Source of the DNA: a virus
Length of the DNA: 64,000 nucleotides
Virus record (IMG/VR): IMGVR_UViG_3300017763_004709
Location: 1-64,000 of that record
Direction: 5' to 3' (one strand)
Of this stretch, positions 36,788-59,823 are shown one piece after another (the first letter of the stretch is position 1; each line of letters begins with the position of its first letter). A program made the translations under genes and the position numbers. The notes under the pieces are model-generated. The model made no database searches and was not told the DNA's origin. It worked only from the letters and a program-made list of their open reading frames with translations.

Positions 36788-37763
36788 TATAAATATCTAA
36801 CCAATTTTTAAATTCGTCTAATACGCTCTCAGCGCTATGAGTTTTAGTACAAGCAAAACTAGTACTAGTATGGGGGCAATGTCTGGGCCAAAAAGTAAAG
36901 TTAGCTGTGGGATTGCCAGGCTCTGTGTTAGTATCGGCATCTTTACTTAGTTTAGGAACTACACACTTAAAATCTCCACAATGATTATTAGTAGACGGTT
37001 TTATAGTTTTATGATATCCATCAGAATAAAACTCAGGACTATCGTACTCTGTAGGAAACACACTAGGAATACTAATAGTATTTACGTCCATAGCTGCCGA
37101 AGCATGCACTAAAGATCCTAAAGGAGATATAAATAAGTTTTGACGCTTTAATATCTGTAAAGATTGATATAAATTAAAATTTCCACACTCTATGCCTAAA
37201 AAAGATAGCTCATGTTCTATATTTTTATTAGTCAGTATCTCTCTTATGCCTTGTATTATATCTAATCTCATTGTTTCTGACTGTAATTTTCTATTCCAGT
37301 CTAAAGGGCCTGACATACCTATTCTTAATATTTTATCATCAGGCTTAACAGAGTCTATGTTTAGTATGGTGTTACCGTCTAAAAACTGATCTTCGGTAAT
37401 GTATTCTTTTATAGGTAAATTAGCACTCTTAGAAATTCCTAAATCTGAAAACCACCGCCAGTGTAAAAACATTTTATCTACTTTTTTAAACTGATCTTCG
37501 CTTTTATTTAAGTTTACGTTTTTTACTTGACCTCTATTATCAAATTCTATTAATCCTATAGAATCTAACCAAGGCTGTTTACTAATAACTTCTAAAACTT
37601 CTGATATACCACTAGGTTGTTCATGAGTAGTAAGCATAAAATTACTTCTTAAACAATAACTTACTAAATGATCAGGGTTATTTTCTTTATATCTTCTAGC
37701 AGCATTTATGCCTAGAATTACGTCTCCGAATGCTTGTGTGTTTGCAAATAGTACATGAGTCAT
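36774..37763 (-). CDS. GT9-like (heptosyltransferase-like) glycosyltransferase
   Basis: A 329-residue protein. The opening VLFANTQAFGDVILGINAARRY is the typical GT9 start (G-x-GD in other members). The second half contains LFISPLGSLVHASAAM, the nucleotide-sugar side with the conserved HxxxA. GT9 includes LPS heptosyltransferases; heptose-activation genes at 47-48 kb would supply such a donor. Motif support is moderate. Confidence 0.65.
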   Translation of the reverse strand: MTHVLFANTQAFGDVILGINAARRYKENNPDHLVSYCLRSNFMLTTHEQPSGISEVLEVISKQPWLDSIGLIEFDNRGQVKNVNLNKSEDQFKKVDKMFLHWRWFSDLGISKSANLPIKEYITEDQFLDGNTILNIDSVKPDDKILRIGMSGPLDWNRKLQSETMRLDIIQGIREILTNKNIEHELSFLGIECGNFNLYQSLQILKRQNLFISPLGSLVHASAAMDVNTISIPSVFPTEYDSPEFYSDGYHKTIKPSTNNHCGDFKCVVPKLSKDADTNTEPGNPTANFTFWPRHCPHTSTSFACTKTHSAESVLDEFKNWLDIYNDNS

Positions 37764-38791
37764 TTATTAAATAGCCTATCTGTCCATGTTTTAGGTGTTT
37801 TATCATTTATTATTTCTAAATCTATATGATAATCAAAGTCTCTAGTAGTTTGGTCTCTCATCCACACCACAGTATCTCTTATAGTTTCTTCAATATCTGT
37901 GTCTGCTTTATAGTTTAGTACGTCCTCTGCCTTATCAGTAGATACCCAAGCATTTTTTACTTCTCTAGGTCTTTCAGGAACAAAGTTTATTTCTGCAGTT
38001 TTGTTAAAATATTTAGCTACTTTATTTGCTAGTGCTGCTATAGAAGTTTCGGTTCCATGGCTAGGACCTATATTAAATACTTCTTTGCTTTCTATTTTAT
38101 CTCTTTTATTATAAACTGTTACAAAAGCTTCTACACAATCTTTTACATGAGAAAAAGATCTTTTTTGTGTTCCGTCACCATAAATATATACAGGTTTATC
38201 TTTAGATATTAGATTTGCAAAAATACTCATAACGTTTCTAAAAGGATCACTATAGCACTGATGAGGGCCGCACACATTATGAGGAACCATATGAAATACT
38301 TTTATTCCATGAATGTCACTCATTAAATTTAAATGCTGCTCTGCGTGTAATTTAGCTAAGCCATAAGGATCTACAGGATTAGGAGTATGATCTTCTTGAA
38401 AAGGAGGATTTCCTTCGCCATATCTTGCCATAGAAGTGGTATTTATAAACATAGGTACATTATTACTTACAGAAGCACTACACACAGAAGCTGTTCCTGC
38501 ATATATGTTCTCAACTATTTTTTTAGGAGAAAAAACACTTAATCCTTCGTGGGCTAAAGCAGCACAGTGTATTACAAGCACAGGAGAGTAAATACCCATT
38601 ACATTAGACAGCTCTTTAGTATCTAGTATGTCTTGCTCATAATAAAAAAAGTTTTTATTATCAGGCATGTTGGTTATATAGCCACCTATTAAAGAGTCTA
38701 TACCTATTACTCTGTACCCTAACTCTAAATACTTATAACATAGATGACTACCTATTAATCCTGCAGATCCTGTAATTACAACTGATTCCAT
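37760..38791 (-). CDS. NAD-dependent sugar epimerase/dehydratase
   Basis: A 343-residue SDR enzyme. Rossmann motif VVITGSAGLIGSHLCYKYLE at the N-terminus, then MARYGEGNPPFQEDHTP and the catalytic YGLAKLHAE (YxxxK, about 145-149). Similar to UDP-glucose 4-epimerases. It prepares nucleotide sugars for the adjacent transferases. Overlaps both neighbours by a few bases. Confidence 0.88.
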   Translation of the reverse strand: MESVVITGSAGLIGSHLCYKYLELGYRVIGIDSLIGGYITNMPDNKNFFYYEQDILDTKELSNVMGIYSPVLVIHCAALAHEGLSVFSPKKIVENIYAGTASVCSASVSNNVPMFINTTSMARYGEGNPPFQEDHTPNPVDPYGLAKLHAEQHLNLMSDIHGIKVFHMVPHNVCGPHQCYSDPFRNVMSIFANLISKDKPVYIYGDGTQKRSFSHVKDCVEAFVTVYNKRDKIESKEVFNIGPSHGTETSIAALANKVAKYFNKTAEINFVPERPREVKNAWVSTDKAEDVLNYKADTDIEETIRDTVVWMRDQTTRDFDYHIDLEIINDKTPKTWTDRLFNK

Positions 38792-39549
38792 ACGTCATTC
38801 CAATCTACTAAGGGGGTTACACAATTATCTTGTAGGTGTGTAGCAGTTCCAGGTAAAGGACAAACAGCTACATTCTGTCTAAAAGCTTTCCAGGTCCAAG
38901 AGTCGTCTGAAAACAAACCTGCTTGAAGTATAGAAAACTTAAAAGGTAAGAATGTTTTTCCTTTTGCGGCTAAAGTTAAAGTAGCACTGCTAACTGTTTT
39001 TAAGTGACAGTCAGGTCCTACTAATACTTCTACTGTTCTGTCTTTATCAAAATACCTATCTGGATAGTCATAAGGCAAATAAAAACCTTCATACCCTGCT
39101 TTAAAAACATTTTTCATAGTTTTTATGGCAGTTTTAGTATGAAGGTAATCGTCTTCGCATAAATATATTAGCTCTTCAGTATTTGCTTCTGCTATTTCTA
39201 TTAAATTTTCCATTAACGGAATACAAGTATTTATTGTAACAGGATGATACTGAGGATAAGGATGCTCCCCAAATGGGGGTACTTCAGTTCTGTTAGGTAT
39301 ATCTTTTATTTCTAATTTAGTAGGTATAGAGCAGGTTTCTCGCATCCAAGATTTAGTTTCTTCAGTAACTGTATCTGCTAATACTATAATCTTATCGTCC
39401 CAGCCTTCTAAATCTTGTTGTAAAGAAAGCCAACATTTTCTAAAGATTTCATCTTTCTTTTTTCCATTCCATCTAGCTTTATCTTGTGAGCCGTCTGATA
39501 TACTTCCTGGAGACTTATTAGCTTCTGAAGCTCTATATATTATTATCAT
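38776..39549 (-). CDS. Putative GT-A glycosyltransferase
   Basis: A 257-residue protein. IIIYRASEANKSPGSISDGSQ opens it; IYLCEDDYLH near residue 130 gives a possible metal site (EDD), and GLFSDDSWTWKAF lies toward the C-terminus. It lies between the epimerase and the acyltransferase-like gene. Family assignment is uncertain, but fold and setting both suggest sugar transfer. Confidence 0.5.
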   Translation of the reverse strand: MIIIYRASEANKSPGSISDGSQDKARWNGKKKDEIFRKCWLSLQQDLEGWDDKIIVLADTVTEETKSWMRETCSIPTKLEIKDIPNRTEVPPFGEHPYPQYHPVTINTCIPLMENLIEIAEANTEELIYLCEDDYLHTKTAIKTMKNVFKAGYEGFYLPYDYPDRYFDKDRTVEVLVGPDCHLKTVSSATLTLAAKGKTFLPFKFSILQAGLFSDDSWTWKAFRQNVAVCPLPGTATHLQDNCVTPLVDWNDVWNQL

Positions 39550-40142
39550 TTTGTTACTTTTTTTCTTGAGAAATTTCTATATTCATCAATAATACTTATA
39601 ATATAAGGATCTAAAGGTTCTATACCTTCTCTTACAAATTTTTCTATTTCGTCTTTTTGATTATTATTAAAGTTACTTTTATAAATAGAAGAACGATATA
39701 CTCCTCTTGTTTTAGAAGGATTACCAAACACTTTAGAGAAAGGTTTTACATCTTTTATTATGGGCGAAAATGTTCCTATAAAAGAATGACTACCTACTGT
39801 AGAGTAATTTTGTATATGAGCATTATACTCTATATAAACATTATTTTGAATAACACTATGAAAACCTAAGTAACAACAACCTGTTATAGTATTATTATTG
39901 CCTATCAAAGTATCACTATTAATAGTAGTACTTGGGCCTATATAATTGCCACTTCCTATAACAGTATTCTCTCTGTAACCAGTTGCGCAGTTAATAACAC
40001 ATGCTGAAAGTATGGTATTGTTTTTACCTAGAGATATTCCATATTTATCATCTTTTACTAAAAACACCACTGAAGGGTCAATAGTATTAGAAGAATCTAT
40101 AGAAAATTCTATAATAGCTTTGGAGGCAGAGTATACTTTCAT
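39546..40142 (-). CDS. Left-handed beta-helix acyltransferase-like protein
   Basis: A 198-residue protein made of hexapeptide repeats (VIGSGNYIGPSTTI, LIGNNNTITGCCYLG, VYIEYNAHIQ, HSFIGTFSPI) and ending KVFGNPSKTRGVY, as in sugar O- or N-acetyltransferases. A GTG at 40169 would also be in frame but lies in the 3' stem of the tmRNA, so the ATG at 40142 was preferred. It probably acetylates a sugar used by the adjoining transferases. Confidence 0.75.
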   Translation of the reverse strand: MKVYSASKAIIEFSIDSSNTIDPSVVFLVKDDKYGISLGKNNTILSACVINCATGYRENTVIGSGNYIGPSTTINSDTLIGNNNTITGCCYLGFHSVIQNNVYIEYNAHIQNYSTVGSHSFIGTFSPIIKDVKPFSKVFGNPSKTRGVYRSSIYKSNFNNNQKDEIEKFVREGIEPLDPYIISIIDEYRNFSRKKVTK

Positions 40143-40162
40143 AGTGCTATTCAAAATAATGA

Positions 40163-40446
40163 GTGTCACTTTTTCTGTTGCTAGGCAAGTGACCAGCCCC
40201 CTTAATCATGCAGCTAGTGCGTAATTAGATGGTGCAAAGTTATCGTTTGCGTTTGTAGTTTTTGGCTGAATATCGTAGGCCAACACGGTAATCTACTCTC
40301 ATCTCTACACACCTGTCGATCCTAGTTCAGCCCCATAAGAAACACACTTATCTTAATGTGTTTATGGTGGAGCTGTCGGGTACTGCCCCCGAGTCCAGTA
40401 TGTATGTTGAATTGTATCAACGATTACAAAAAAGAGGTTTAAAACG
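40163..40446 (-). ncRNA. ssrA: Circularly permuted two-piece tmRNA
   Basis: Read on the minus strand. The acceptor piece comes first: T-stem TCGGG / CCCGA with loop GGCAGTA, then acceptor strand CAGCTCC and ACCA, ending at 40365. A 30-base spacer (40335-40364) holds the hairpin AAACACA / TGTGTTT. The coding piece then starts with GGGGCTG at 40334, which pairs with CAGCTCC. The tag frame at 40206-40250 reads ANDNFAPSNYALAA followed by TGA. A final stem GTCACTT / AAGTGAC closes near 40163. This order is the alphaproteobacterial permuted form. The acceptor 5' end (about 40446) and the 3' end are estimates. Confidence 0.9.
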
Positions 40447-40461
40447 ATAGATGTATCGAAG

Positions 40462-40581
40462 TTAGTGACCCCTTAATTCCTTATTTATTTTTTGTCTTGT
40501 TTTCTTATTAGATAGTTGTTTTAGTTTCTTTTTCCATGCCCTAGATAGTGCATGAGGTATTACGCCGTTTTTAGGATTCAT
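40462..40581 (-). CDS. Small basic protein, 39 aa
   Basis: An ATG at 40581 with AGGAG upstream opens a 39-residue, strongly basic frame (SRAWKKKLKQLSNKKTRQK). It ends just before the tmRNA acceptor piece. The composition suggests RNA or ribosome binding. It follows another small gene by ten bases. Confidence 0.5.
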   Translation of the reverse strand: MNPKNGVIPHALSRAWKKKLKQLSNKKTRQKINKELRGH

Positions 40582-48785: not shown

Positions 48786-49853
48786 ATGGAATATTTCAAT
48801 AAAACTAGTGAAGACTGGCGTATTTCTCAATGCTGTCAGTTCCATGATAAAGCAAAAGCTAAATCTTACAATTTTGGAACTACTACTAAAACTTATGCTC
48901 TAAAAGAGGGCGGAAAAGAAAGAGTGCAACAAAAAGCTTTACATAATTGTAATCAGCTTTTATCTGTGCTAAAAAATCATTTCCCTACACAACCTAAAAA
49001 TCTAAGAGCTTGGAGAATATCTTCAGAGCTTTTTCCTTGCTACACTTTAGATTTTACTAAGCCTTGGTACGAAGAAATTTGGGATGACATTTGTGCTATA
49101 CTAGAAGAATGCGGTAGACTAGCAAAAAAACATGAAGTAAGACTCAGTGTGCATCCTGGACAGTATACTGTTCTAGCGTCTAACAAAGCTGAGGTAGTAG
49201 AAAACTCTATTAAAGATTTAGAGTATCATGCTCTATATGGTAGTTTGATGGGATTACCCGCTAAAGACTTTGTAATGAATATTCATCTTCAGGGTCTATA
49301 TGGAGGAAAGCACGAAGACGGCATAAAGCGTTTTGCTACTAATTTTCATTACCTATCTGACTACGCCCAACAGTGTCTTACTGTAGAAAATGAAGATAAA
49401 CCTAATGGTTATGATATAAGACATACTATAGAGCTATCTAAGCGTGTACCTATTCGCTGTTGTTTAGACACTCACCATTATGCATGCCATAGAATGAGAG
49501 AGTCGGAAAAAGTTGTACTAGAAGGCAAAACTGTTAATAGGAAGATTAGGGATGTAGAACATATTACTTATACCCATGAGTACTTTGCAGAGGCTGTAGT
49601 ATCTTGGAAAGGGGTTAGACCTTTATTTCACGTGTCTCAATCTTTCCCTCCAGAAAATTCTGCCTATTGGATGAAGCCTAATGCTCACTCAGAAGTATTC
49701 TGGGATGAAGAACTTATGGCAAATCATGTGCCTATGTTACAGTATGCAGACTTTGATATAGAAGCTAAACATAAAGAAGTAGCCGTACTAGGTTTTTACA
49801 ATTTTATAAAAGAAGAAGAAGAGCTAGCAGGAGAGCCCTTAGTAGCAATATGA
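48786..49853 (+). CDS. uvsE: UV damage endonuclease UvsE/UvdE-like
   Basis: A 355-residue TIM-barrel nuclease. Motifs include RISSELFPCYT, VRLSVHPGQYTVLAS (metal-binding His), NIHLQGLYGGK, LTVENED and CCLDTHHYACH, which follow the UVDE family pattern. It nicks DNA 5' to UV photoproducts and so starts excision repair. This would help a virus in sunlit water. It has its own consensus promoter. Length is slightly above the family norm. Confidence 0.9.
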   Translation: MEYFNKTSEDWRISQCCQFHDKAKAKSYNFGTTTKTYALKEGGKERVQQKALHNCNQLLSVLKNHFPTQPKNLRAWRISSELFPCYTLDFTKPWYEEIWDDICAILEECGRLAKKHEVRLSVHPGQYTVLASNKAEVVENSIKDLEYHALYGSLMGLPAKDFVMNIHLQGLYGGKHEDGIKRFATNFHYLSDYAQQCLTVENEDKPNGYDIRHTIELSKRVPIRCCLDTHHYACHRMRESEKVVLEGKTVNRKIRDVEHITYTHEYFAEAVVSWKGVRPLFHVSQSFPPENSAYWMKPNAHSEVFWDEELMANHVPMLQYADFDIEAKHKEVAVLGFYNFIKEEEELAGEPLVAI

Positions 49854-50811: not shown

Positions 50812-51621
50812 ATGTCTAGCATAGTACTGGTTACTGGAGGTTTTGACCCTCTTCATTCTGGCCATATAGCTTACTTTAAAGAAGCTAAAAGGTTAGGACA
50901 AAAATTAGTGGTCGGACTAAATAGTGATGATTGGCTAACAAGAAAAAAAGGTAGACCCTTTATGAGCTGGTCTGAAAGAGCTGAGATACTTGAAAATATA
51001 AGCTGTATTGACAGAGTTATTAAATTTAATGACTTAGACGATACTGCTAATGACGCTATATATAAAACTTTAAAAATGTCTCCTGATAGTAGAATAATTT
51101 TTGCTAATGGAGGAGATAGATCTATAGGTAATACTCCTGAAGAAAAAACTTATGGAGGAGTACCTTGGGTTAGGTTTGAATGGGGAATAGGAGGAGAGAA
51201 TAAAGTAAATAGTTCTTCTTGGATTCTAGACAAATGGAAAACTCAAAAAACAGAAAGAGATTGGGGGTACTGGAGAGTTTTAGATGATAAACAACCAGCA
51301 TTACCTCAAAAGATAAAAGAGCTAGTTATTTATCCTAATTGTAGCTTATCTGATCAAAAACATTTAGATCGCTCAGAACATTGGTATGTATTAGAGGGAG
51401 ATTTACAAATAGAACTAGAATATCCAGATGCTACTTGGAAAACAATGATTCTTAGCCCTCATACTACTTTTGTTATACCTACTAATACTTGGCATAAAAC
51501 TACCAATATTGGTAGTTTTAACGCTCATGTTCTTGAAGTACAATACGGAACTAAATGTATTGAGTCAGACATTGAGCGAAGGCAGATACTTAATGAAAAG
51601 AATAAACGAGACGACATATAA
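50812..51621 (+). CDS. Nucleotidyltransferase-cupin fusion
   Basis: A 269-residue two-domain protein. Residues 1-150 form a cytidylyltransferase-like domain: VTGGFDPLHSGHIAYFKEA (HxGH type) and VGLNSDDWLTRKKGRPF. Residues about 160-260 form a cupin: SEHWYVLEGDLQIEL and TFVIPTNTWHKTTN. The fusion pairs sugar activation with a cupin isomerase or epimerase-like step. The fused order is unusual. It probably feeds the glycan genes. Confidence 0.75.
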   Translation: MSSIVLVTGGFDPLHSGHIAYFKEAKRLGQKLVVGLNSDDWLTRKKGRPFMSWSERAEILENISCIDRVIKFNDLDDTANDAIYKTLKMSPDSRIIFANGGDRSIGNTPEEKTYGGVPWVRFEWGIGGENKVNSSSWILDKWKTQKTERDWGYWRVLDDKQPALPQKIKELVIYPNCSLSDQKHLDRSEHWYVLEGDLQIELEYPDATWKTMILSPHTTFVIPTNTWHKTTNIGSFNAHVLEVQYGTKCIESDIERRQILNEKNKRDDI

Positions 51622-58777: not shown

Positions 58778-59110
58778 ATGCTAGCTAATATTACTAATCT
58801 AAACACAGAATATTCTGATTGCACTATTTTAATAGATCCAAGCGATTCTTGGACTACAGATAAGACTATATCTGTTCTATTGTCAAGACTTTTAGCTAAC
58901 TACTCAGAGTATTGCGAAGAATATCCTAGCGATTTTTCTTCTTTAGAAGAGTGGAAAATGGAAGTTAACTATCATTCAGATTGTTTAAGTGAGTATTTTT
59001 ATTGTCAAGAATCAGATAATGCTGAGTTTGAAGCAATTCTTAAAGACACTAAAAAGTCTTTTAAATTTATCTCTGAATATTTAGAAGATTTATGGATAGT
59101 TAACGAATGA
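58778..59110 (+). CDS. Acidic hypothetical protein, 110 aa
   Basis: Strongly acidic and rich in Ser, Tyr and Glu (EYCEEYPSDFSSLEEWK). Unrecognised. GAGGAAA precedes the ATG; the stop overlaps the phosphomannomutase start as ATGA. Confidence 0.55.
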   Translation: MLANITNLNTEYSDCTILIDPSDSWTTDKTISVLLSRLLANYSEYCEEYPSDFSSLEEWKMEVNYHSDCLSEYFYCQESDNAEFEAILKDTKKSFKFISEYLEDLWIVNE

Positions 59111-59823
59111 CTGCTATAATATTTGATGTAGACGGTACTCTTACAGACCCTAGAGAAAAAATAGATCCTTTCTTTTTACAAGAACTTGTAGGATTATCTA
59201 TGTCTTATAGTATTTATTTAGCTACAGGAAGCGACTACGTTAAAACAGAAGAACAACTAGATACGTGGTTTTTAGAGAACATAATTTCCTATAGTTTTAA
59301 TTGCTCAGGAAACTCTGTATGGCAAAAAGGACAAGAAGTATATAGAGAAGACTGGATTACTCCTACCGAAGTATTAGATTGGCTTAACAGTGAACTAACT
59401 GAAAGTACTTTTGAACACAAGACAGGGTTTCATTTTGACAAAAGACCTGGTATGCTAAACTTTAGTATAGTTGGAAGAAATGCTACACCTCTACAAAGAG
59501 TATTATATTCTGAGTTTGACAAAAACACTAAAGAAAGGTTAAACTTATCTATAAAGTTTAATAATGCTTTTAAAGATAAATATAATATTACAGCACAGAT
59601 TGCCGGAAGAACTGGTTTTGACATATATAGAGACGGTAAGGATAAGAGTCAAATATTAGATTACTTTGAAAATATTCCTATATTATTTTTTGGCGATGAC
59701 ACTCAAGAGGGCGGTAATGATCATACGTTAGCTAAAGCTATCGAAGAAAGAAACAATAAAGAAGATAAAGTATTTAAAGTATCTTCTCCTTCTGAAACAA
59801 GATATTTAGTTTCTCTTCTTTAA
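59107..59823 (+). CDS. Phosphomannomutase, eukaryotic-type HAD
   Basis: A 238-residue HAD phosphatase-fold enzyme. It starts IIFDVDGTLTDPREKI (both catalytic Asp), has RPGMLNFSIVGRNA (the substrate-binding loop of PMM) and ILFFGDDTQEGGNDHTLA near the end. This is close to the PMM2 type rather than bacterial ManB. It interconverts mannose-6- and mannose-1-phosphate for GDP-mannose. It supports the phage sugar genes. Confidence 0.85.
   Translation: MTAIIFDVDGTLTDPREKIDPFFLQELVGLSMSYSIYLATGSDYVKTEEQLDTWFLENIISYSFNCSGNSVWQKGQEVYREDWITPTEVLDWLNSELTESTFEHKTGFHFDKRPGMLNFSIVGRNATPLQRVLYSEFDKNTKERLNLSIKFNNAFKDKYNITAQIAGRTGFDIYRDGKDKSQILDYFENIPILFFGDDTQEGGNDHTLAKAIEERNNKEDKVFKVSSPSETRYLVSLL

Follow-up and report, generated by a model that had tools for sequence, protein, structure and literature searches.

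A phage-encoded, circularly permuted tmRNA with an intervening sequence that is exchanged among relatives

Introduction

A two-piece tmRNA gene in a phage genome raises the questions of whether it serves the phage or is a relic of the host ssrA gene, and of what can occupy the intervening sequence (IVS) that separates its two pieces. Both arise in IMG/VR virus record IMGVR_UViG_3300017763_004709, of which 64 kb (positions 1 to 64,000; here called the window) of a total of 75.8 kb were analysed. An earlier note, made from the sequence alone, had reported a circularly permuted, two-piece tmRNA in this stretch and had considered such a gene unusual in a phage. The first statement is borne out below by phage gene context, two Rfam models and an ARAGORN call, but the second is not. 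A survey of phage tmRNAs found 53 two-piece forms among 133 unique structures, 50 of the 53 marine or aquatic, and described one in the Methylophilales phage Melnitz (PMC9004378), and our scan of viral contigs with a permuted-tmRNA pattern returned at least 120 rows.

The tmRNA gene and its surroundings

The window is siphovirus-like, with genes for tail proteins, a T5-type DNA polymerase, a DnaB-like helicase, an SbcC-like nuclease, ribonucleotide reductase and recombination proteins, as well as six tRNAs called by ARAGORN. It also includes a UvdE-like UV endonuclease (48786-49853), a cytidylyltransferase/mannose-6-phosphate isomerase fusion (50812-51621) and a phosphomannomutase-like HAD protein (59107-59823). 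The tmRNA and the features around it are all on the minus strand. Upstream of it is a 39-aa basic ORF (MNPKNGVIPHALSRAWKKKLKQLSNKKTRQKINKELRGH; 40462-40581), which is also found beside the tmRNA in near relatives, with a terminator-like stem and T-run (40428-40474) just 5' of the tmRNA that was identified by eye and in the minimum free energy (MFE) fold, a simple terminator scan making no call. Downstream is a hexapeptide-transferase gene (39546-40142, ATG at 40142; Pfam PF00132) that opens a glycan gene cluster.

Rfam models and ARAGORN place a circularly permuted tmRNA of the alphaproteobacterial type at 40162-40468. RF04321 (tmRNA_permuted) was matched over the full model at 40427-40206 with 127 bits (E 1.8e-24; gathering score 47 bits). 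The alphaproteobacterial model, RF01849 (alpha_tmRNA), which the earlier note had proposed as a check, was also matched in full, at 40468-40162 with 118.5 bits (E 1.1e-31; gathering score 50 bits). The ARAGORN call, also of a permuted form, is c[40115,40458] and gives the tag ANDNFAPSNYALAA, in agreement with the earlier note. A degenerate tag pattern had one match in the window and none in 100 shuffles, so the tmRNA match is not a chance one. The tag frame (40206-40250), on which ARAGORN, the tag pattern and the sequence agree, has a proteolysis-type C terminus with the canonical ALAA end and is followed by the stop codon TGA.

In the direction of transcription, the elements are the T-arm, CAGCTCC, ACCA, a hairpin spacer, GGGGCTG, the tag with its TGA and a 3' hairpin. 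The acceptor piece thus lies 5' of the coding piece, as the earlier note had it. It spans 40365-40427 when its start is taken from RF04321, though this 5' end is uncertain and may lie as far out as 40468 by RF01849. It includes GGAC and a T-stem and alpha-type T-loop (TCGGG-GGCAGTA-CCCGA; 40376-40396), the 3' strand of the acceptor stem (CAGCTCC; 40369-40375) and A73-CCA (40365-40368). The IVS is a 30-nt hairpin, TAAACACA...TGTGTTTCTTAT, at 40335-40364, within the stretch that the earlier note had delimited correctly. The coding piece (40162-40334, its far end set by the reach of RF01849) begins with the 5' strand of the acceptor stem (GGGGCTG; 40328-40334), the predicted RNase P-made 5' end, and ends with a 3' hairpin (40162-40194) that RF01849 and the fold both support and that carries the conserved CTAGCAACAGAA loop of alpha tmRNAs. 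GGGGCTG and CAGCTCC form all seven (7/7) pairs across the two pieces, with a G-U as the third pair, so that both the G3-U70 alanine identity pair and CCA are present.

In the MFE fold, CAGCUCC pairs with a second copy of GGGGCTG located 3' of the tag (40194-40200). As this copy competes for the acceptor strand, MFE folding was rejected as proof of the cross-piece stem, and the two-piece structure is better backed by covariation. The second copy also allows a possible alternative fold of the precursor.

Covariation and retention in related phages

The pairing was examined in 128 distinct permuted tmRNAs from viral loci, in which the coding piece was located by the motif AGGATCGAC and pairing was not required. 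The T-stem is paired in 128/128, when approximately 55/128 would be expected in shuffled combinations, and each of the four kinds of Watson-Crick pair occurs at its pair 1. In the acceptor stem proposed in the note, 98.9% of the pairs form, pairs 5 and 6 show exchanges, and G3-U70 is present in 127/128. Compensated changes in the T-stem are found even among very close relatives, with TCGGG/CCCGA in the window, CTGGG/CCCAG in L130 and TGCGG/CCGCA in L129. Judged from these substitutions, the RNA pairs of the phage tmRNA are under selection.

Relatives recovered via the epimerase gene (37760-38791) retain the tmRNA approximately 1.3 kb upstream. Their tags, which include ANDNFAPSNYALAA, ANDNFAPKEFALAA, ANDNFAPSEFALAA and ANDNFAPSELALAA, vary in the interior and keep ALAA-type ends. 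ARAGORN reported N-extended tags in L140, L142 and L168 (ARKLIIANDNFAPVSLALAA, ARQQTNANDNFAPVSLALAA), probably because of a misplaced resume codon. The tmRNA was absent from L135-L139 and L144 within the stretch covered for each, and is thus not essential.

These data bear on whether the gene could be a fragment or relic of host ssrA, carried by accident after imprecise excision or as the remnant of an integration site, and free of selection. tmRNA genes are often integration sites and prophages can carry pieces of ssrA (PMC9004378). Against this, both models were matched in full, the tag is open, and the gene sits among phage genes, away from the end of the record. Compensated base-pair changes and the synteny kept over divergent relatives also speak against a relic, and the covariation in the main refutes it. 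We regard this origin as very improbable.

An alphaproteobacterial host had also been suggested. The tmRNA is indeed alpha-type, but this is no proof of the host, since Melnitz has an alpha-type tmRNA and infects a methylophilalean. When the tag was compared with those of hosts, the pattern ANDNFAPxNYAL had 0 matches in genome contigs, while a core-tag pattern matched seven proteobacterial MAGs, six of them titled Alphaproteobacteria, and no clear host emerged. An alphaproteobacterial host is a fair guess, and only a lead.

Exchange of the intervening sequence

Comparison of the window with its closest relatives revealed that the tmRNA can be almost unchanged while the IVS differs completely. 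In L125, the flanks share 98.4% and 99.1% identity with those of the window, and the IVSs, of 94 and 30 nt, respectively, are unrelated. The same pattern, with exchange confined to the IVS, is seen in L130 (94 nt), L127 (74 nt) and L129 (111 nt). Among phages with tmRNAs that are up to 98-99% identical, the exact site of the window IVS is therefore taken by unrelated sequences of 74-111 nt. Conversely, similar inserts were noted by eye in different tmRNAs (L128/L039, L131/L140 and L013/L105). The insert common to L131 and L140 looks structured and pseudoknot-like (GTGCTGG...CCAGCAC with ATCCTAT/ATTAGGAT), and the surrounding tmRNAs differ. When loci with structured IVSs, including this insert, were searched with Rfam, only tmRNA and tRNA families were returned, the IVSs yielded nothing new, and the insert of L131 and L140 had no Rfam match.

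The IVS is bounded by a closing stem, AAACACATT...AATGTGTTT, usually followed by TGAT, that directly adjoins the acceptor stem. In the 101 genes with an IVS of at least 40 nt, this stem is 91.7% paired, with many compensatory types, and the window IVS has one as well (AAACACA/TGTGTTT). From these comparisons, the IVS is a site of whole-insert exchange behind a conserved closing stem in the window's phage group.

Viral IVSs have a median length of 79 nt, with 56/117 above 80 nt, and those of ten isolate phages range from 88 to 410 nt. Among the bacterial loci examined, IVSs are mostly 3-47 nt, and the few of 105-232 nt were chosen for their length. On reading, these long bacterial IVSs have a structured or repetitive look and no Shine-Dalgarno ORF was seen in them.

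Small open reading frames in the intervening sequence

There is no ORF in the window's own 30-nt IVS, and one is present in the near relative L129. Shine-Dalgarno ORFs of 34-77 aa, several of them hydrophobic, fill the IVS in L129, L187, L057, L114, L086, L027, L048, L031/L087, L233 and L248. To be counted in a set of IVSs assembled blind to ORFs, an ORF had to start with ATG behind a Shine-Dalgarno sequence and cover at least 65% of an IVS of at least 85 nt. By this measure an ORF is present in 14 of the 55 viral IVSs that were long enough, compared with 0.55 (maximum 3) in 200 dinucleotide shuffles, a 25-fold excess. With a targeted pattern, a Shine-Dalgarno sequence and ATG were located in the IVS of 74 contig stretches. 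The merged set comprises 50 IVS ORFs of 28-82 aa, partly selected for Shine-Dalgarno starts, that belong to many unrelated families.

In-frame pN/pS was 0.35, 0.26, 0.23 and 0.07 in families A, B, E and G, respectively, and higher in the other frames. In family C, one other frame gave about the same value as the ORF frame. Pairs within families are non-independent and the pooled pN/pS values are descriptive. Across six pairs, differences numbered 32, 23 and 58 at the three codon positions, a third-position excess with p = 6e-5. The ORF frame has 0 stops and the other two frames have 84 and 94, a difference that is partly by construction. The same IVS protein family can be found in different tmRNAs. 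Family A, a hydrophobic protein of 34 aa, was found in 16 viral contigs, in all of them inside a tmRNA IVS, including that of L129. The Kyte-Doolittle mean over 19 residues exceeds 1.6 in 16/50 IVS ORFs, and in 28/50 the stop codon is at or beyond the end of the IVS, the predicted RNase P site. Searches with the IVS proteins against PHROGs gave nothing convincing, and there was no credible match to family A or a 77-aa IVS protein in isolate phages, or to family A in plasmids.

A member of family C is carried by a cultured phage. In Melnitz (L341, MZ577097.1), an unannotated family C ORF (MFKWLSKTRLVVITRDYFRERNRKADAKIPKYLSGTRS...) is located in the 142-nt IVS of the tmRNA, which is annotated at locus 743-1195, and its stop lies 39 nt into the coding piece.

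If these ORFs were not genes, they would have stayed open by chance in A+T-rich spacers that vary only because nothing constrains them. Many IVSs, including that of the window, are without an ORF, and the structured IVSs of roseophages lack a Shine-Dalgarno ORF, as this explanation would have it. However, it does not account for the excess over dinucleotide shuffles, the protein-level selection in frame, the absence of in-frame stops (subject to the reservation above) or the recurrence of one protein family in different tmRNAs, and we consider it unlikely. In many relatives, the IVS apparently holds a small, real protein gene.

Proposed function

With a probability of roughly 0.8, we conclude that the window encodes a functional, circularly permuted phage tmRNA for ribosome rescue, with an exchangeable IVS. 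The precursor cutting, charging and rescue set out here are inferred from established tmRNA biology. A single precursor would be cut by RNase P at G1 of the coding piece and trimmed at CCA, and the two pieces would remain paired via the acceptor stem. Alanyl-tRNA synthetase would charge the tmRNA, given G3-U70 and A73. No SmpB gene was found in the phage record, so the tmRNA would depend on host SmpB, with which it would free ribosomes stalled on broken mRNA and tag the nascent protein for host proteases via ...ALAA. The main benefit is most likely the recycling of ribosomes while mRNA is degraded during infection.

Alternatively, the phage tmRNA could act as a decoy or modifier, either by competing with the tmRNA of the host or by sending tagged proteins elsewhere. 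There is a precedent in phage DS6A, whose tmRNA lacks a CDS and, according to work cited in PMC11915505, inhibits the endogenous tmRNA in Escherichia coli. As the window tmRNA has a full tag with its canonical end and stop, and the tags of relatives keep ALAA-type ends, a role of this kind appears improbable and we favour ordinary rescue.

For a rescue tmRNA matured in this way, the IVS would be discarded, so its interior would be free to change. The exchange site holds no more than a hairpin in the window, whereas relatives have structured RNA there or an apparent gene for a small protein that is often hydrophobic. The closing stem probably has two roles, offering the acceptor end to the processing enzymes and shielding it from the IVS contents. 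An IVS gene might be translated before the precursor is cut or from the IVS once it has been excised and, where its stop codon is in the coding piece, processing would turn it into a non-stop message. Removal of the stop by the cut, predicted for the 28 ORFs noted above, could be either regulation or mere tolerance. Tentatively, and with slightly less than an even chance of being right, the phage IVS may be a dedicated cargo site at which expression of a small protein is tied to tmRNA maturation, the non-stop message can be tagged by the same tmRNA, and the window represents an empty, minimal site.

The IVS result suggests that a stable-RNA gene can be a container for exchangeable small genes, and the IVS ORFs make up a compact collection of uncharacterized small proteins of phages, one of them in the cultured phage Melnitz.

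Comparison with known two-piece tmRNAs

As far as the tmRNA itself is concerned, the window phage is a further member of a group already described in print. Further isolates with a permuted tmRNA, mostly unannotated, are DSS3P8, RcXuper, RcRudolph, RcSimone-Hastad, MD18 and DSS3_MAL1, together with Erythrobacter phage vB_EliS-L02, Mesorhizobium phage Cp1R7A-A1 and Sinorhizobium phage Phosso. A blastn search with the window tmRNA against phage isolates returned only short T-arm matches. ARAGORN made no tmRNA call in L027, L057, L086, L114, L129 or L187, all phage tmRNAs with a long IVS, and surveys relying on it alone will undercount tmRNAs of this kind.

The two-piece tmRNA of Alphaproteobacteria (RF01849; Caulobacter ssrA) shares with that of the window the gene order, T-loop, acceptor stem, tag type and 3' CTAGCAACAGAA element, but its IVS is usually short (3-47 nt at most loci examined) and is without the phage closing stem. 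The tmRNA of Melnitz (PMC9004378; MZ577097.1) is likewise phage-encoded, permuted and alpha-type, with a closing stem and a long IVS, and is reported to have a glutamine riboswitch on its 3' side. Melnitz, a T4-like myophage, has a family C ORF in its 142-nt IVS, whereas the window phage resembles a siphovirus and its IVS measures 30 nt. The roseophages and Rhodobacter phages (DSS3P8, RcXuper, RcRudolph, RcSimone-Hastad, MD18 and DSS3_MAL1) also have a permuted tmRNA and a closing stem, but their IVSs are G+C-rich, structured and 97-109 nt long, without a Shine-Dalgarno ORF. Strong IVS folds of this length were seen in L342, L346 (RcRudolph, RcSimone-Hastad), L345, L348, L347 and L123, most of whose tmRNAs are unannotated, and in RcRudolph an annotated hypothetical protein runs across the tmRNA.

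In the literature searched, of which coverage was partial, we found no earlier report of protein genes in a tmRNA IVS, only of a tRNA and a repeat. While the phage two-piece tmRNA was already known, the exchangeable, gene-bearing IVS looks new. A close parallel is the report of one tRNA-Ala and one repetitive element in the IVSs of permuted tmRNAs (PMC11915505), which, like the phage cases, place extra content inside the IVS. Those inserts are single cases from cellular genomes and include no protein gene, whereas the small ORFs in phage IVSs are recurrent.
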